Positions 46,841-57,396 of a DNA stretch of 64,000 nt are shown piece by piece. A model generated the notes under the pieces. It was not told the origin of the DNA. It was given only the letters and a program-made list of their open reading frames with translations, and did no database searches. The position numbers were made by a program, and so were the translations under genes. This stretch comes from Pseudomonadota bacterium. GTDB taxonomy: Bacteria; Bdellovibrionota; FAC87; UBA2466. Each line of letters begins with the position of its first letter. The stretch's first letter is position 1. The stretch spans positions 67,409 to 131,408 of the forward strand of contig RFNO01000106.1 in NCBI GenBank assembly GCA_009927165.1, read 5' to 3'.

Positions 46841-47110
46841 TTACCCCCCCTTTTTTTGTACTTCTTCGAGAAGATACTTTTGGTAGAGCGTATCCCATTG
46901 GGGAGTTCCTTCTCGAGGAGGATTTTTTTGAGAGAGAATTTTTTTTTGGACAATTTCGCCCACCGCGTTAATCTGATTGATATAACCCAAACTTAGTTTT
47001 TTTGCTTCGCGTAAAGCTTCTTCTTCATTGGGATAGTCCACCAAGTCTTGCTTCCAGATGCCATCTAGCATGAGATGAACGATATGAATCATTTTCTCTT
47101 CTGAAATCAT
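46841..47110 (-). CDS. DUF507 family protein
   Basis: 89 residues. The pattern MIHIVHLMLDGIWKQDLVDY, then EEEALREAKKLSLGYI, VQKKILSQ, and PQWDTLYQKYLLEEVQKKGG matches the DUF507 family as remembered from delta-proteobacteria and Aquificae. The function of the family is unknown. It is the second of two tandem DUF507 genes, eight bases after the first, an arrangement common in these groups. GGAGTTGTC precedes its ATG. Confidence 0.82.
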   Translation of the reverse strand: MISEEKMIHIVHLMLDGIWKQDLVDYPNEEEALREAKKLSLGYINQINAVGEIVQKKILSQKNPPREGTPQWDTLYQKYLLEEVQKKGG

Positions 47111-47118
47111 GACAACTC

Positions 47119-47397
47119 CTAGAGGATGACCCCTTTGTCTTTAACCAGTTGTTTTTTAATCATTTGAAACATTTTTTGCCGGTCAATTTTGTCACCCATT
47201 TGGGCTTCATATTGGGCCAGAATCTTCTCTGCTTCACGATTGATGTCGTCTTCTACTTTCAAGTCTTTGATAAAAATTTCCTGCATTTTAGCTAAGACTT
47301 CTTGTGCCGGCTTTTTCAATTGGATGAGCTGTTTGGCTTTTAGCCCCAGCAGGATCTTTTGGCAGACTTGCTTAACTTGAAATTCACTTAACCTCAT
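47119..47397 (-). CDS. DUF507 family protein, second copy
   Basis: 92 residues from ATG 47397, where the family start MRLSEFQVKQVCQKILLGL lies; the frame extends 12 codons further to 47433, which would overlap the divergent pbp gene. It is helical and charged (LAKMQEIFIKDLKVEDDINR, QMIKKQLVKDKGVIL). The start lies 26 bases from the divergent ATG at 47424, so both must share a very short control region. Function unknown. Confidence 0.8.
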   Translation of the reverse strand: MRLSEFQVKQVCQKILLGLKAKQLIQLKKPAQEVLAKMQEIFIKDLKVEDDINREAEKILAQYEAQMGDKIDRQKMFQMIKKQLVKDKGVIL

Positions 47398-47423
47398 AGG
47401 AAAGACAGTACGCTTGGGATAAG

Positions 47424-49619
47424 ATGTTTTCAATGCTGAACATAAGGAACTCTAAATTTTACACATTACTGCTGACCGCTTTGGGCATCTTTTGTTCCTT
47501 GGGCCTCTTTTTTATTCTCTACTTAGCCTGGATCCTTCACACAGTTTCTCCTCGCATCGAACAGCTACGAAGTAATCGACCTTCAGTTTTTTATGGGGTT
47601 TTCCCTTCGTTAAAAAAAGGCCGACATTTTCCTGTTTCGGAATTTGAAAATCTTTTAGCCGACATGGGATTTCGAAAAAGTAAAAGTCTTGATGGTTTGC
47701 CTGTGGGTGAATTTGCTTGGGAAAATCAAAGCGCATCTCAAAAAACTTTGTTAATCCATCGACCCGCTTTTGAAGGAGCTGGTCGCGGGTTAGATAGACT
47801 CAAAGTTCGTATTGCTTTCGTTCCTTTGGAGAAGGGGAGTTGGGAAATTGAGTCGATTACTCGATTGGATAACAGCGAAACCATCGAAGCGCTGGATTTT
47901 CCTCCGCGTAGTATCAGCTCGTTTTATGCAGGAAGGGTGAGAACGCAAAACCCCATTGCACTTTCTGACATTCCTACTTCGATGCGATACGCAGCGATGG
48001 CAATCGAAGATGTTCACTTTTTGGAACATCGAGGAGTCAGCGTTCGCTCCATTGTTCGGGCTTTGATTCAAGACATTCGAGCCGGCAAATTTGTTCAAGG
48101 GGGAAGCACGATCACTCAGCAGCTCATGAAGAATCTCTTTTTTTCGAGAGAAAAGTCTATTTATCGAAAAGTTCAAGAGGCTCTTTATGCTTTGGTTACG
48201 GAAGTAAAATTTCCTAAAGAGGATATTTTGGAGGCTTACTTAAATGAAGTGTATTTAGGGCAATGGAGCACTCATGAGATTCATGGAGTCGCGGAAGGGG
48301 CTCGGTTCTATTTCAATCAGGCTGCTTCAGACCTTACTTTGTCTCAAAGTGCAACTCTCGCGGCGATTATCCAGCTACCCAATGCTCATGATCCCCATCG
48401 AGCTGCCGATCGAGTGTTAAAACGAAGAAATCTGGTTTTAAAAAAAATGCTCGAAGCTGGATTTATTTTGGAAGACGAGTTTCAGGAAGCCGTGAAAGAG
48501 CCTCTCGGTGTGGTGCCTGCTGAAAGAAATTTAGAGGATATTGGCTATTTTATGGATCTCGTCCTTCGTGAACTTCCTGCAGAAATGAGAAGTCGGCTGA
48601 GTTCTGAGCCCCTGACGATCTACACTACTCTTAATCCTTTTCTTCAATCGTCTGCTTCTAAAAATCTGAAAACTAATCTCGAACGACTAACTAAAGGATA
48701 TCAATCTATTAAAAAGAGAGATGAAAAGGGGATTCGACTTCAAAGTGCTCTGATTGCAGTAGATGTCCCCAATTGTGCAGTCATTGCACTCCAAGGGGGA
48801 AGTAGCTATCGCCAAACCCAATTCAACCGAGTTCTAGCTGGAAAACGTCAACCGGGTTCGTTATTTAAACCCTTTGTTTTTTTGACCGCTTTTGACAAAG
48901 CTACTTTAGAGAACCCCTTTTCCGGTGAAACGTTACTGGATGGAACTCCTTTTGAGTGGGTTTATGATAAACAAAATTGGAAGCCTAGGAATTACGAAGA
49001 TGAAGCTCTCGAAAAAGTGACTGCAGCTGAGGCCCTCCAAAAATCAATCAATATACCGACAGCGCGGTTGGCTCAATTAGTGGGTATTGCAAATGTACAA
49101 GAAACAATCAAAAAAGCCGGCGTAGTCTCTAGCATTCCCCCTCTCCCATCGATTAGCTTGGGAAGTGCCGAAGTAAGCCCCTTCGAATTAGCAGAGAGTT
49201 ATGTCACCCTTGCAAACTTGGGACAAGGGTGCCGACTGCGGCCGGTCACGGCAGTTTATGATGAAAATGGAAATAACTTATGGGATTCCCCGTTATCAAA
49301 AGAAGCTCGCTTCTCACCGTATCCCACTTATCAGACAGTGGAGTTGATGAAGGGGGTATTTACCAATGGAACGGCACGCGCTGCTCAGGGGAGTGGAATC
49401 AACTTAGACGTATTTGCGGGCAAAACAGGGACTACTAATGACTTTAAAGATGCTTGGTTTGTGGGTTTTTCTCCCGAAATCCTCACCTTAGTTTGGGTGG
49501 GTTATGACGAAGAAGAAAAAGTGGGTCTAACCGGCGCTGCGGCCGCTCTGCCCCTTTGGATAGAGTTTATCAAGACATCCGAGCCGTTTCGTCAAGACAC
49601 CGATTTCGTTAAACCTTAA
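47424..49619 (+). CDS. mrcB: Bifunctional penicillin-binding protein, class A (PBP1b-like)
   Basis: 731 residues. It polymerises glycan strands and cross-links peptides outside the inner membrane. One N-terminal anchor (YTLLLTALGIFCSLGLFFIL) is followed by an extra domain (about 55-170) in the place of the UB2H domain of PBP1b. The GT51 domain has AIEDVHFLEHRGVS (catalytic Glu), GGSTITQQLMKNLFF and LEAYLNEVYLG. The transpeptidase has GSLFKPF (S near 479), KSINIPTA (SxN) and AGKTGTTNDFKDAWFVGFSP (KTG near 667). It may be the first gene of the operon that continues into the peroxidase and BtpA genes, since the gap to the peroxidase ATG is only 40 bases. Confidence 0.93.
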   Translation: MFSMLNIRNSKFYTLLLTALGIFCSLGLFFILYLAWILHTVSPRIEQLRSNRPSVFYGVFPSLKKGRHFPVSEFENLLADMGFRKSKSLDGLPVGEFAWENQSASQKTLLIHRPAFEGAGRGLDRLKVRIAFVPLEKGSWEIESITRLDNSETIEALDFPPRSISSFYAGRVRTQNPIALSDIPTSMRYAAMAIEDVHFLEHRGVSVRSIVRALIQDIRAGKFVQGGSTITQQLMKNLFFSREKSIYRKVQEALYALVTEVKFPKEDILEAYLNEVYLGQWSTHEIHGVAEGARFYFNQAASDLTLSQSATLAAIIQLPNAHDPHRAADRVLKRRNLVLKKMLEAGFILEDEFQEAVKEPLGVVPAERNLEDIGYFMDLVLRELPAEMRSRLSSEPLTIYTTLNPFLQSSASKNLKTNLERLTKGYQSIKKRDEKGIRLQSALIAVDVPNCAVIALQGGSSYRQTQFNRVLAGKRQPGSLFKPFVFLTAFDKATLENPFSGETLLDGTPFEWVYDKQNWKPRNYEDEALEKVTAAEALQKSINIPTARLAQLVGIANVQETIKKAGVVSSIPPLPSISLGSAEVSPFELAESYVTLANLGQGCRLRPVTAVYDENGNNLWDSPLSKEARFSPYPTYQTVELMKGVFTNGTARAAQGSGINLDVFAGKTGTTNDFKDAWFVGFSPEILTLVWVGYDEEEKVGLTGAAAALPLWIEFIKTSEPFRQDTDFVKP

Positions 49620-49659
49620 AGGCTTTACTCAAACGAATGGGCTTGCTACTTTGAGGCCC

Positions 49660-50199
49660 ATGAAAACAACTCTTTTAATACTAGGTTTACTTATGGTTAC
49701 AAACACTGGATTTTCAAAAACGGTTCATGAATTCGAAGTTGAAACCTTACAGGGGAAGAAAACTTCCTTGAAATCGTATTCGGGAAAAGTACTTCTCATT
49801 GTGAACACGGCTTCAAAGTGTGGCTATACTCCCCAATACCAAGACCTGCAGTCGCTTTATAATACCTACAAAGGAAAAGGTTTGGTTGTTTTAGGATTTC
49901 CCAGTAATGATTTTGGCAGCCAGGAACCAGGAACTAATGCTGAGATTGCCAGCTTTTGTCAGAAAAACTATGGGGTCACTTTCCCCATGTTCTCCAAGGG
50001 CCCAGTAACAGGCGAGAGCAAACAAGCCCTATTCAAGTTTCTGACCGAGGACTCTCAGTCAGGATTGAAAGGCGAAGTCCAGTGGAATTTCGAAAAATTT
50101 CTGGTCGATAAAAAAGGAAATCTAGTAGCTCGATTTCGATCCAGTGTTGAACCTAAATCTGCCCCATTGATTGAGGCTATTGAAACAGCACTCAAATAA
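49660..50199 (+). CDS. Glutathione peroxidase family protein, exported
   Basis: 179 residues from ATG 49660. The signal peptide MKTTLLILGLLMVTNTGFSK places it in the periplasm. The peroxidatic site NTASKCGYTPQYQDLQSL has Cys, not selenocysteine. GFPSNDFGSQEPGTNAEI and VQWNFEKFLVDKKG supply the Gln and Trp/Asn of the catalytic set. Bacterial members usually use thioredoxin rather than glutathione. Its stop TAA shares a base with the next ATG (TAATG), the first of three such overlaps in this operon. Confidence 0.92.
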   Translation: MKTTLLILGLLMVTNTGFSKTVHEFEVETLQGKKTSLKSYSGKVLLIVNTASKCGYTPQYQDLQSLYNTYKGKGLVVLGFPSNDFGSQEPGTNAEIASFCQKNYGVTFPMFSKGPVTGESKQALFKFLTEDSQSGLKGEVQWNFEKFLVDKKGNLVARFRSSVEPKSAPLIEAIETALK

Positions 50200-50834
50200 T
50201 GGCTTATTTTTTAGAAATGTTAGGAGCAGCTTTAGTACTCGTTAGTTCTTCAGTTTTTATTGCCCAAAAAGCAGAAGCACAACCACTTCCTGAAAACACA
50301 ATCTATTTGGTGAAAAACGGAGAAAAAAAACCGCTCCTATTTCCTGGAAAAGCCTTTTGGGAATTAAAAAATGACAAGACTGAAAGGCCCGGAGTGGGAA
50401 AGACTGAAAGTCGACTAGAAAAACAAGGAAACCAAGTATGGATGAGGGGTGACTTGGCTTCCTTGATGGGGAATTGGGGAAGAGTGGGGTTTTCCTTGAT
50501 TGAAACAGCAATTATGAAACCTCTCCAGAAAACTGAAGGTTTGTTTTTTAAGGCCAAAGGAACGGAAGCTGCTTTTTTTTCTATTTTAGTGAAAGATCGT
50601 CAGTCCCATCAGCCAGAGGGAACGCTCACTTTCCAATGGGACTTTGAAGCACAGTCCGATGGAGCAGAGTATTTTGCAAAGTGGGAAGATTTTGTTCCCA
50701 AAATTAGAGGGAAAAAAGTGGAAGGCTTTGAACTCGATCTTTTTTCCGTCCAATCACTTAGTTTTCAGATTTCTCGAAGCCAACAGCAAAAATGGTACGA
50801 GACGGTTCCGCTTGAGTTCGAATTGGGGATTTAA
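50199..50834 (+). CDS. Exported CIA30-like (galactose-binding fold) protein
   Basis: 211 residues with a signal peptide (FLEMLGAALVLVSSSVFIAQKAEA). The C-terminal half, with WEDFVPKIRGK followed by LFSVQSLSFQISRSQQQ and the ending VPLEFELGI, resembles the CIA30 / complex I intermediate-associated fold (W..F.P..RG...L....I..LGF.I......F.L.I). In bacteria such domains are mostly of unknown role. This match is from pattern memory only. It is coupled to both neighbours by one-base stop/start overlaps, so it is probably needed in fixed amounts with them. Confidence 0.7.
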   Translation: MAYFLEMLGAALVLVSSSVFIAQKAEAQPLPENTIYLVKNGEKKPLLFPGKAFWELKNDKTERPGVGKTESRLEKQGNQVWMRGDLASLMGNWGRVGFSLIETAIMKPLQKTEGLFFKAKGTEAAFFSILVKDRQSHQPEGTLTFQWDFEAQSDGAEYFAKWEDFVPKIRGKKVEGFELDLFSVQSLSFQISRSQQQKWYETVPLEFELGI

Positions 50835-51622
50835 TGTTTAAAAATATCAAGCCCGTGATCGGAATGCTTCATGCGCCTAGTCTTCCCGGGAGCTGTGGTT
50901 TTTATGGGGACTTGAAAGCGCTTCGGTCGTTTGTGCTTAAAGATGCCGAGAACTTGGTTTCTGGTGGAGTAGATGCTCTGATGATTGAGAACTATTGGGA
51001 CCTTCCCTTTGTGCCAGGGGCAGTAGCTGAATCGACTGTCGCTAATTTAGCGGTTCTGGCGCGAGAAGTGAAAGACCGGTTTAAACTCCCTTTGGGGATC
51101 AACGTACTTCGAAATGACGGAGTGAGTGCTATAGCTATTGCCCACTGTTCTCAAGCCCAATTCATTCGCGTGAATATTTTATCGGGAGCGAGATTGACGG
51201 ATCAAGGAATCATCAATGGCAAAGCTCATGAAGTTTTAAGATTCAGAAAAAAGATAAGCGCAGAAAATATTCGTGTGTTTGCAGACATCTCTGTGAAATG
51301 TTCCGTAGCTTTGGCGCAAAGGCCCCTTAAAAATGAAGTGGAAGAAACGTTGGAACGAGCAGGTGCCGATGGGTTGATAGTATCGGGAGAAAGTACGGGT
51401 AAGCCGGTCGATTTAGACCAACTTCGAGAAGTAAAACGCTTGTCGCCTAAAAATCCGGTGTGGATTGGAAGCGGGGCAACTCTGGAAAATATTTTGGAGC
51501 TTGCTCAGTACGCCGATGGTTTTATTGTCGGAACTGCTTTTAAAGAAGCTATCGATGAGCCCGTGGATGCGAGGCGGGTTAAAAGCTTAGTAGAGAAATT
51601 AAGAAAAGGAGCTCTGGTATGA
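50834..51622 (+). CDS. BtpA/SgcQ-family TIM-barrel protein, copy 1
   Basis: 262 residues. The family start is KPVIGMLHAPSLPGSCGFYG. It continues GGVDALMIENYWDLPFVPGA, PLGINVLRNDGVSAIAIA, FIRVNILSGARLTDQGI and ends PVWIGSGATLENILEL followed by GFIVGTAFK. BtpA was described for photosystem I stability in cyanobacteria, and SgcQ is a putative sugar-pathway member; the reaction is unknown, and this window shows no photosynthesis genes. It has no signal peptide. It overlaps the CIA30-like gene (TAATG) and the second copy (ATGA). Confidence 0.9.
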   Translation: MFKNIKPVIGMLHAPSLPGSCGFYGDLKALRSFVLKDAENLVSGGVDALMIENYWDLPFVPGAVAESTVANLAVLAREVKDRFKLPLGINVLRNDGVSAIAIAHCSQAQFIRVNILSGARLTDQGIINGKAHEVLRFRKKISAENIRVFADISVKCSVALAQRPLKNEVEETLERAGADGLIVSGESTGKPVDLDQLREVKRLSPKNPVWIGSGATLENILELAQYADGFIVGTAFKEAIDEPVDARRVKSLVEKLRKGALV

Positions 51623-52410
51623 AGCTCTTAACGGCAAAAAAGGCCTTGCTGGGAATGGTGCATGTGAGAGCACTGCCGGGAACTCCTCGCGATGAGAAAA
51701 TGTTTGAGAAAGTAGTGGAGCAAGCACTGGCGGAAGCAAAGGCTTTTGAAAAAGCTGGGTTCCAAGGGGTGATACTTGAGAACATGCACGATGTTCCCTA
51801 CTTGAGAACTCAAGTTGGGCCGGAAATCGTAGCGGCGATGGCAGTGGTTGCACATGAAGTAAAAAAGAACACCCATCTTTCTTTGGGGATTCAAATTTTG
51901 GCTGGAGCCAATGCTGCAGCTCTCAGTGTTGCCCAAGCCGTGGAAGCAGACTTTGTGAGGGTTGAAGGATTTGTGTTTGCTCATGTGGCCGATGAGGGAT
52001 TGATAGAAGCTTGTGCAGGCCCTCTTCTTCGGCTCCGCCGAGAATTAGGGGCGGAATCAATAAAAATTTTCGCCGATATTAAGAAAAAACATTCCAGTCA
52101 TGCATTAACTGCAGACGTGAGTATTGCTGAAACCGCGCATGCTGCTGAATTTTTTGGAGCTGATGGAGTCATCCTCACAGGTTCGCATACTGGGGCAACT
52201 GCTTCGTTGAGCGAACTAGAGCAAGTAAAGAGCGCTGTTCACATTCCCGTATGGATAGGCTCGGGAATCACTGCAGAAAACGTAGCGGAGTTTAAAGAAG
52301 CAGACGGTTGGATTGTGGGGTCGTCTTTAAAAGCAAAACAGAACTGGGCCAACCCCCTCGAATCATCGGCCCTTACCAAGATGGTTGAGGCCGCCCAAAA
52401 AGCGTGCTAA
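51619..52410 (+). CDS. BtpA/SgcQ-family TIM-barrel protein, copy 2
   Basis: 263 residues. It has the same domain as copy 1 but is clearly diverged: ALLGMVHVRALPGTPRDEKM, QGVILENMHDVPYLRTQVGP, LSLGIQILAGANAAALSVAQ, ADFVRVEGFVFAHVADEGLI and PVWIGSGITAENVAEF. It retains the ENMHD and RVEGFVFAHVADEG wording typical of BtpA, while copy 1 has changed these (ENYWD, RVNILSGARLTDQG). The pair may form a heteromer, one active and one modified. The tRNA-Gly gene follows 21 bases downstream. Confidence 0.92.
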   Translation: MKLLTAKKALLGMVHVRALPGTPRDEKMFEKVVEQALAEAKAFEKAGFQGVILENMHDVPYLRTQVGPEIVAAMAVVAHEVKKNTHLSLGIQILAGANAAALSVAQAVEADFVRVEGFVFAHVADEGLIEACAGPLLRLRRELGAESIKIFADIKKKHSSHALTADVSIAETAHAAEFFGADGVILTGSHTGATASLSELEQVKSAVHIPVWIGSGITAENVAEFKEADGWIVGSSLKAKQNWANPLESSALTKMVEAAQKAC

Positions 52411-52431: not shown

Positions 52432-52507
52432 GCGGGCGTAGCTCAGTTGGTAGAGCATCAGCTTCCCAAGCTGAGGGTCGCGAGTTCGAACCTCGTCGCC
52501 CGCTCCA
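52432..52507 (+). tRNA. tRNA-Gly (anticodon CCC)
   Basis: 76 bases including an encoded CCA. The acceptor stem GCGGGCG pairs with CGCCCGC, with discriminator T. The D arm is GCTC...GAGC, the anticodon stem TCAGC/GCTGA encloses the loop TTCCCAA (anticodon CCC, reading GGG), and the T arm is GCGAG/CTCGT with TTCGAAC. All stems pair, allowing the usual G-T. The 3' CCA is the start of a 12-base tandem repeat. Confidence 0.96.
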
Positions 52508-52543
52508 AAAGGTACTCCAAAAGGTACTGCCTTACTTTTGGTA
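52505..52543 (+). repeat. Tandem 12-base repeat and imperfect palindrome at the tRNA-Gly 3' end
   Basis: CCAAAAGGTACT occurs twice head to tail (52505-52516, 52517-52528), the first beginning in the tRNA CCA. From 52517 the sequence forms an imperfect palindrome whose outer arms are CCAAAAG (52517-52523) and CTTTTGG (52535-52541). The 27 bases 52517-52543 match 56214-56240 at 23 positions. It could be a terminator for the tRNA, a dispersed repeat or an operator. Confidence 0.7.
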
Positions 52544-53711
52544 GTTATCCTAGCATTGGGGGTGGTTGTTGCCCCCGTTTCACTTAGCAAAAGCCCACAA
52601 AGAGAAGTAGCAGCTTTTTATTCACAAGCGGAATGGCTCAAGCGATGCTCTATCGAAGTCAATGGCTGTATTGCCGGTAAGAAAGCTTCCGACGTCTTAG
52701 TTTGGAGAAATGGAAATCAATACGTCAGCTCAAGTTGGGCTTATGGATTAAATTTAACGGCAGTGGCAGTCGCCAAGGGCTCCCCCCGCGGAGTAGCGGT
52801 TACTCCGAGACACCTCCTCTATACTAAGCATTTTGGGTGGCATGCATTGTCTGGCCAAACGGTTCAATTTCTCACGATGGATAACCAATTGATTTCCCGA
52901 GTGGTCGACCAAGTAAAGTACTTGGGATCAGGAAATAACAGTAACTTCGAAATTGACGTAGCAGTAGTGAGATTAAATGAGGATCTTCCTACGAGCATTA
53001 CACCAATGAAGTTAATTGCTCCCCTGGGATTAAAAGATGTAGTCCAATACACTTATCCTGTTTTGAGAATTGATCAAGAAAACAAAGCCCTCCTACTAGT
53101 GGGTTAGAACATGCATACCGGGTACTTTTCAAATACTCGGTTTGTTTTTTTTCAGCCACGAGACGATTTTTATTTTACCCCTACTGTTCGAGCCTATGCT
53201 GCGTTTTATGAACCAATGGTCATTGGTGATTCCACTTCCTCATCTATTCTTTTGTACAAAGATCAGTATGGTGTTACTCCGTTTCTGGTGAGTCAGGTAA
53301 CTTTTGGAGGTCCTGGCAGTGGCGCCAATCTTTCAGCACTTGCCGGAGACATACAAGCTGTTATTGATAGCTTTGGAGATACCAGTACTCGGTATCGATT
53401 AAGTTTTGGTCCCTATGAGTTTACGGGAACCAATCCAGTGCCTCCATCACCTACTTGCAGTTTGGATGTTGTTTACAGAGAGACAGGCGCTAGCACAGGG
53501 ACTTGTAGTTTTAATTTGAGAATTAGCAACAATAATACTTTGGTTTCTACGCCCAAAACTACTCCCCAAGATCCCAGATGGACGATCGCTAGAGACAATA
53601 AATCAGCCACTGGAGCTCTTGCTTGCAATGGAACCCCTTTACTCCAGAAGTTTTACCGTCACAGTCAAAGGTGCTAGTGGGCACGGGACCTGTTCAGCGA
53701 ATGTAAGATAG
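52538..53711 (+). pseudogene. Trypsin-like serine protease, broken by an amber codon and a 3' frameshift
   Basis: Two open segments lie in one frame, 52538-53107 and 53111-53677, split by a single TAG at 53105-53107. Read across it, the product has a hydrophobic start, His in VTPRHLLYTKHF, Asp in IDVAVVRLNEDLP and, after the stop, Ser in MVIGDSTSSSILLYK with TFGGPGSGANLSALAGDI. This is the order and spacing of a chymotrypsin-fold protease. Near 53640 the frame shifts by one. The other frame continues SFTVTVKGASGHGTCSANVR to a TAG at 53709-53711, resembling the earlier TGASTGTCSFNLRIS, so a C-terminal Cys-containing repeat was lost. The start lies in the repeat, at a TTG. Suppression of the stop or assembly error are the alternatives. 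Confidence 0.72.
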
Positions 53712-56264: not shown

Positions 56265-57396
56265 ATGATGTTTCGTAACCTCGGCATTCTTTTCTTGATT
56301 TACAACCTTACAGCGATAGCCACTGAATCGCTTCTAGTTCACAGCGAGCGGCCGTTACAGGCGGAGTCTTTGCCTGAAGCGCTGGAGCCTTTCGAGACGC
56401 CTATTTCTGGTTTATTTATTCGAAACCATCACGATGTTCCGGTTGTTGATTTTGATCAACATAAAATTGTGGTTCGCGGTCTTGTCGAAAACCCTATTGA
56501 AATTTCTGTTCATGAGCTAAGAAAGCTTCCACAAAAACAACTCTATGCAGTTGTTGAATGTTCTGGAAACAGGAGAGGATTTCAAAACCCAACAGCTGGG
56601 GGGATCCAATGGTCCGAAGGGGCTGTTGGAAATGTGTTGTGGGAAGGAGTGAGTCTTGCGGCGATTCTAGAAAAGGCTAAGCCCAAAAAGGAAGCTCGGT
56701 TCATCACTGTACGCGGAGCAGATAGGGCCGCTCTCCCCAGTACACCAGATTACATTCGTAGTATCCCACTGAATAAAGCGATGGAATCTGATTCTCTGAT
56801 TGCTCTCAAAATGAATCGAGAATATGCAACCGCTGGTTCATCCTTGGAATCCCGCTGGTTATTTGAGAAATGCTGTGAGCGGCATTAACTTCTGGGTCTT
56901 GGATTCCCAAGAATACTCAGGTTACGAAGTTTACAAAAATCAGTGTCTGATTTGTCACTCCGAAGGCATTATTTCAAGTCAGAAATTTGATAAAAAAGGT
57001 TGGCTTAAACTGATCAGTAAAATGAAAAAGTTTGGGGCGGATATTGCCCCGGATGAGGAAGAAGGCCTGACCCGGTTTCTGATGGGGCTGAGAAAAAGGA
57101 AACCAATTGAGGAGAAAAAAAGTTCCTACTCGGTTCAACGAGACAAATTTGAATTAGTGAAAACTGGTGCGGCAGTATCTCCAGAACCTCAGCAGCTCTA
57201 TGAAAGTACGTGTGCTCAATGCCATGGAAACGATGGTGAAGGAAAAATTGGCCCGCGTCTAAAAGGGCGGCTTGTTCCTAAAGCTGACTTTGTGGCGGCA
57301 GTGACTCGAGGAAAAAATCGGATGCCTGCCTTTGGTGACAGCCTCACTCAAACGCAAGTCTTAGGGCTGTGGCAGCACCTCCAAAAAACACAATAA
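56265..57396 (+). pseudogene. Sulfite oxidase-like molybdoenzyme fused to cytochrome c, with internal deletion and frame change
   Basis: Segment 1 (56265-56888) has a signal peptide and the first part of a sulfite-oxidase molybdopterin domain, including the Mo-binding cysteine in VVECSGNRRGFQ and the typical IRSIPLNKAMESDSLIALKMN. Directly after that, where more than 100 further residues should follow, it runs out of frame. Segment 2 (56824-57396, another frame) begins NMQPLVHPWNPAGYLRNAV, which resembles the extreme C-terminus of the sulfite-oxidase dimerisation domain (known pattern NVQP...WN.RG...NA). It continues without a stop into two CxxCH haem sites (CLICH, CAQCH). Segment 2 has no export signal of its own. 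The deletion reading explains both ends; two functional overlapping genes are less likely. Confidence 0.7.

Follow-up and report, generated by a model that had tools for sequence, protein, structure and literature searches.

A genus-conserved operon around a tandem of two BtpA subfamilies in freshwater Bdellovibrionota

The four-gene unit and its exported half

Four genes lie head to tail on the forward strand of the window, by which we mean the whole 64,000-nucleotide stretch of Bdellovibrionota DNA that was analysed. They encode a peroxidase (GPx), a CIA30-domain protein and two different BtpA-family proteins, BtpA1 and BtpA2 (Table 1). An initial annotation of the sequence had placed overlaps of 1, 1 and 4 bases at the three junctions, and re-examination confirmed both the coordinates and the junction sequences. 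For gpx, an alternative in-frame TTG start is possible at 49651.

Table 1. Positions, in the window, of the four genes, their junctions and the surrounding features
Feature	Position	Strand	Details
DUF507 (PF04368, 182 positions)	46841-47433	-	split into two small genes
Penicillin-binding-protein gene	47424-49619		unit starts 40 bases behind it
gpx	49660-50199	+	179 aa; Pfam GSHPx, 1.6e-39
gpx/CIA30 junction, TAATG	50197-50201	+	1-base overlap; CIA30 lacks a Shine-Dalgarno sequence
CIA30-domain gene	50199-50834	+	211 aa; Pfam CIA30, 2.4e-8
CIA30/btpA1 junction, TAATG	50832-50836	+	1-base overlap; GGGGA upstream
btpA1	50834-51622	+	Pfam BtpA, 3.8e-80
btpA1/btpA2 junction, ATGA	51619-51622	+	4-base overlap; AAGGAG ahead of it
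btpA2	51619-52410	+	Pfam BtpA, 1.1e-67
tRNA-Gly(CCC)	52432-52507	+	right-hand limit of the four-gene unit, 21 bases past its end
Frame just 3´ of tRNA-Gly	52538-53677	+	single in-frame TAG at 53105-53107
Oxidoreductase-domain and cytochrome c genes	56265-57396	+	overlapping pair

A single overlap would be unremarkable here, since 1- or 4-base overlaps join 7 of the window's 40 pairs of adjacent genes on the same strand, 3 of the 7 belonging to this unit. Three consecutive overlaps that are retained in relatives are hardly accidental, and it is the conservation in relatives, more than the overlaps in the window, that argues for a unit. The overlaps had also been taken to imply a fixed ratio of translation, a claim that the ribosome-binding sequences do not support: btpA2 has a strong Shine-Dalgarno sequence of its own (AAGGAG), btpA1 a weaker one (GGGGA), and CIA30 none. 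Scans for promoters and terminators returned no more candidates than did shuffled sequence.

Judged by its residues, GPx is a normal thioredoxin-type two-cysteine GPx with a signal peptide. It carries a peroxidatic C54, Q88, W142 and N143, together with a resolving-type C100 and no other cysteine, and its closest solved relative is yeast HYR1 (3cmi, 5.6e-45). The catalytic tetrad and the resolving-type cysteine are thus shared with the two-cysteine enzymes yeast HYR1/Gpx3 and poplar GPX5; unlike these, the window protein has a signal peptide, and its gene shares a unit with those for CIA30 and BtpA. Its N terminus (MKTTLLILGLLMVTNTGFSK) is ordinary and signal-peptide-like. Signal peptides had been assigned to both of the first two proteins, which stands for GPx but must be softened for CIA30: the N terminus of the latter is hydrophobic and ends in AEA, and export is rated as probable rather than firm because the n-region carries no positive charge.

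CIA30 scores 34.6 bits against the CIA30/NDUFAF1 family (PF08547), over the Pfam cut-off of 24 bits, and two of its segments, ERPGVG.TES and WYET.PLEFEL, are conserved within the genus. It departs from CIA30/NDUFAF1 in being a small bacterial, probably exported protein with no complex I genes nearby, and a sequence search found no solved relative. In agreement with the initial annotation, BtpA1 and BtpA2 have no signal peptide, and the picture of a conserved unit in joint orientation, one half exported and the other cytosolic, is supported.

Distribution and inheritance of the unit

The order GPx-CIA30-BtpA1-BtpA2 is present in all three genomes of one freshwater Bdellovibrionota genus (the window's own genome, G001 and G002), so that the search for the same order elsewhere, suggested at the outset, extends it to more than one strain. 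In G001 and G002, the four genes are 57-73% identical to those of the window and all three overlaps are retained, each of 4 bases; some of the genes start with GTG or TTG. In G002, a divergent gene upstream of gpx sets the left limit of the unit. In all four genes, codon position 2 is far less changed than position 3, and all are therefore under purifying selection. We conclude that this is a genuine genus-conserved operon around a tandem of two BtpA subfamilies; what it does we propose, below, with moderate confidence.

The right-hand border varies slightly between the genomes. In G001 (L015 1-540) and G002 (L016 1-515), btpA2 is separated from tRNA-Gly by a gene for a small secreted protein rich in Ala and Lys; this gene is absent from the window, where tRNA-Gly comes directly after btpA2.

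In the sister genus (g6), two of six genomes (G009 and G011) have the BtpA pair without the other two genes and at a different genomic location, among unrelated neighbours such as genes for a subtilase and a zinc carboxypeptidase. The 4-base overlap of btpA1 and btpA2 is found in all five genomes that carry the pair. GPx relatives in the sister genus are encoded on contigs other than those of the BtpA pair, and CIA30 orthologues, sought among 59 relatives, were found only in G001 and G002, with none in the sister genus.

These observations bear on the proposal, made in the initial annotation, that the four proteins work together in a single redox-linked pathway reaching from periplasm to cytoplasm. 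The four-gene order and overlaps, kept throughout the genus, and the purifying selection on all four genes are what such a pathway would predict. However, the BtpA pair of the sister genus stands without adjacent GPx or CIA30, the latter being missing there altogether; the two halves of the unit reside in different compartments, and the unit contains no transporter or membrane link. We therefore consider a single redox pathway very improbable. A real functional tie of GPx and CIA30 to the BtpA pair is possible, given that GPx-CIA30 is conserved in the genus.

The idea that GPx-CIA30 is an older, separate module was considered and rejected, as CIA30 occurs only rarely in the phylum and had no GPx-like neighbour in G253, G214 or G132. 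PF08547 was detected in few Bdellovibrionota genomes, a count that is a lower bound, the whole-genome family search having missed the window's own CIA30.

No BtpA was found in other genera of the same bacterial family, and no second BtpA tandem among the ~1,280 genomes searched. The survey covered 369 genomes of Bdellovibrionota (74 with BtpA), 297 of Acidobacteriota (33), 289 of Alphaproteobacteria (18) and 294 of Planctomycetota (123), along with 32 chosen genomes (32). As these are samples, and many of the genomes are fragmented, rare tandems may exist elsewhere.

How the pair came to be in two genera is suggested by protein identities. The SMC protein is 73-74% identical within the genus and 57% identical to that of the sister genus, and window BtpA1 and BtpA2 are about 63-66% identical to their counterparts in the sister genus and about 56-65% to those in their own. 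This pattern hints that the BtpA pair may have moved as a block between genera. Topology tests did not prove a transfer: vertical descent, with the genus kept as one group, could not be rejected (AU p 0.16 and 0.135), and a concatenated five-row tree showed no conflict.

Two BtpA subfamilies and their barrels

BtpA1 and BtpA2 share ~35% identity and are not each other's nearest relatives. In a tree of 129 family members, BtpA1 and its four orthologues group with proteins from Acidobacteriota and Planctomycetota in one clade (support 95), and BtpA2 and its orthologues with proteins from Bacteroidota, Ignavibacteriota and Verrucomicrobiota in another (support 99). Each subfamily is normally single-copy in its other hosts. 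The tandem is a new variant of the known BtpA family that brings two old subfamilies together. A recent duplication, after which one copy turned regulatory, was ruled out by the separate clades and by the residue comparison described below.

Both proteins match Pfam BtpA (PF03437) over their whole length (269.5 bits for BtpA1 and 228.6 for BtpA2; cut-off 30) as well as TIGR00259 (274.2 and 223.5 bits; cut-off 153.4). On the cyanobacterial BtpA equivalog NF045918 they reach 260.5 and 188.1 bits, both below the cut-off of 400.

Residues were assessed by comparing columns across BtpA family members. The motifs quoted in the initial annotation do exist, ENMHD and RVEGFVFAHVADEG in BtpA2, and ENYWD and RVNILSGARLTDQG in BtpA1. 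Its contention that BtpA1 had altered the usual wording is contradicted in two ways: NxxxGxRxTDQG is invariant or nearly so in BtpA1's own Acidobacteriota/Planctomycetota-type subfamily, and BtpA1 scores above BtpA2 on both the Pfam and the cyanobacterial BtpA models. The BtpA2 subfamily has its own signature, EGFxFxHxADEG, which is constant or nearly so. Residues invariant across the whole family are present in both copies, namely E-N-x-x-D-x-P, the arginine after strand 4 (R112/R114), D-x-G, R-x-R, D...K after strand 5, G..TG, GSG and IxG, and the view of BtpA1 as a regulatory or structural partner is accordingly unsupported. Private to BtpA1 of the window are the changes P21C, G55W, P65A and A105C. 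The glycine replaced in G55W is invariant in the BtpA1 subfamily and kept in the four orthologues, and because the change adjoins the ENxxD motif, the activity of BtpA1 may be altered in the window species.

The two proteins might also assemble as an obligate hetero-oligomer, with labour divided between a catalytic subunit and a structural or regulatory one. They are found only together in their bacterial family, always with the 4-base gene overlap, and they differ at several subfamily-diagnostic positions located at the C-terminal ends of barrel strands. We nevertheless regard such an assembly as unlikely, since both copies retain the family-wide invariant residues and each subfamily stands alone in many other genomes, such that neither BtpA needs the other in general.

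AF2 models of both proteins are (beta-alpha)8 barrels (pLDDT 93 for BtpA1 and 91 for BtpA2). Foldseek found no close template in the PDB for either model; the matches, at TM-scores of ~0.6, were to thiamin phosphate synthase, ribulose-phosphate 3-epimerase, PcrB, TrpA, IGPS, OMP decarboxylase and similar barrels, and no solved structure of a close BtpA homologue was found. Barrels of the thiamin phosphate synthase/ribulose-phosphate 3-epimerase type bind phosphate at a shared site where strands 7 and 8 end. At these very positions, the two BtpA copies carry GSG and IVGS/T, which makes a phosphate ligand likely, and on the models we would class BtpA1 and BtpA2 as barrels of the phosphate-binding type.

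A different role is suggested by a 2024 review, in which BtpA of the cyanobacterium Synechocystis is described as a binding partner of glutamyl-tRNA reductase (GluTR) that stabilises this enzyme (PMC11449065); with this report, BtpA is no longer strictly tied to photosystems. The window proteins resemble cyanobacterial BtpA (NF045918; thylakoid biogenesis, GluTR stabilisation) in PF03437, TIGR00259 and overall length, and differ from it in scoring below the equivalog cut-off, in being two different copies in tandem and in their non-phototroph context. It could be imagined that BtpA1 and BtpA2 likewise keep a tetrapyrrole-synthesis enzyme stable, with the exported peroxidase acting in the same haem/peroxide response, and the cyanobacterial model does fit BtpA1 better than BtpA2 (260 versus 188 bits). 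The scores of both copies, short of 400, and the lack of any tetrapyrrole gene in the unit make this improbable. A binding or stabilising role could all the same be ancestral for BtpA, given the GluTR binding in cyanobacteria.

BtpA neighbourhoods and proposed roles

PfkB kinases are encoded near BtpA in 18 of 115 loci, distributed over Flavobacteria, Alphaproteobacteria, Lachnospiraceae and Bdellovibrionota. In five Bdellovibrionota loci (four in family f9 and one in f27), the kinase gene comes right after BtpA, the two either overlapping by 1-4 bases or lying 3 bases apart. At four flavobacterial loci of the BtpA2 subfamily (L135, L136, L142 and L147), BtpA is divergent beside genes for a pseudouridine-kinase-like (PsuK-like) PfkB and a PsuG-like (Indigoidine_A) protein, a setting that is a possible lead to the BtpA reaction. 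The flavobacterial BtpA is, however, a single gene, divergent from the kinase/glycosidase pair, and the window unit has no kinase or glycosidase gene. Sugar ABC transporters and kinases adjoin BtpA on alphaproteobacterial and haloarchaeal plasmids, the kinases being PfkB in Alphaproteobacteria. The E. coli gene sgcQ, of the same family, lies within a PTS operon (sgc, with PTS components and the epimerase-like SgcE), and this phosphosugar setting suggests a phosphate ligand; SgcQ differs from the window pair in belonging to another branch of the tree and in being a single gene, and the window lacks PTS genes.

No clear conserved neighbourhood emerged for the BtpA1-type subfamily in 14 loci, or for the f8/f13 BtpA members of Bdellovibrionota. 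Next to the BtpA pair of the window there is no kinase, transporter or PsuG-like gene, so the link of this pair to a phosphate substrate is by analogy, and the PfkB and transporter neighbourhoods would speak for the BtpA family rather than directly for the window locus. A literature search found no reaction for the BtpA family and nothing linking BtpA with pseudouridine or PfkB.

Two minor observations concern these neighbourhoods. In other families of Bdellovibrionota, a PfkB kinase of divergent sequence comes at once after BtpA, at loci L060 (5299-6956), L062 (4326-5981), L063 (4146-5755), L064 (4438-6002) and L065 (4202-5821), and two such kinases, when checked against NCBIfam, resembled fructoselysine 6-kinase at scores below its cut-off. 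In one genome (G027, L019 5667-9052), BtpA, which overlaps a 5´-nucleotidase-like gene, has a HAD phosphatase-like gene after it.

We favour, with a probability of roughly 0.55, a reading in which BtpA1 and BtpA2 are both active in the cytosol, as enzymes or as sensors of small phosphorylated molecules, and are inherited as a pair, with the exported GPx and CIA30 added in this one genus. At the heart of the unit would be these two different members of the BtpA family. The ligand or substrate of each is most likely a small phosphorylated compound (a sugar, nucleoside or related phosphate), as the modelled barrel is of a phosphate-binding type and the conserved residues are intact. Within one cell, they may account for two steps, or for a single step on each of two substrates. 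In this scenario, two old subfamilies were joined, probably by acquisition, and then locked as a translation-coupled pair through the ATGA overlap; in one genus, an exported two-cysteine GPx and CIA30, itself probably exported, would then have been added to the pair. Given that addition, all four genes likely share a transcript, which would point less to one biochemical pathway for all of them than to expression under the same condition, oxidative stress for example.

Proteins of the BtpA family occur widely, and it is unsettled which reaction, if any, they catalyse. The tandem and the recurrent PfkB neighbourhood make it testable whether they are phosphosugar/nucleoside enzymes or protein-stabilising factors; beyond these two features, the unit is an ordinary lineage-specific operon. 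A bolder version, which we think doubtful, is that selection joined two ancient BtpA subfamilies into a new two-component enzyme or hetero-oligomer in one freshwater Bdellovibrionota family, that this was passed between genera as a pair, and that one genus wired it to an exported peroxidase module. Were it true, the two-component arrangement would offer an experimental handle on the BtpA reaction.

Several features in the surroundings of the unit deserve mention (Table 1). On the left, DUF507 is divided between one small gene for its N-terminal half and another for its C-terminal half, a split also present in G001. On the right, neither part of the frame interrupted by TAG has a Pfam match, and the first part looks protease-like by eye; a pseudogene, a sequencing error and readthrough are all candidate explanations for the stop codon. 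Further downstream, the gene for a molybdopterin-binding oxidoreductase domain protein (207 aa) overlaps a cytochrome c gene, and the two form a sulfite-oxidase-like pair.
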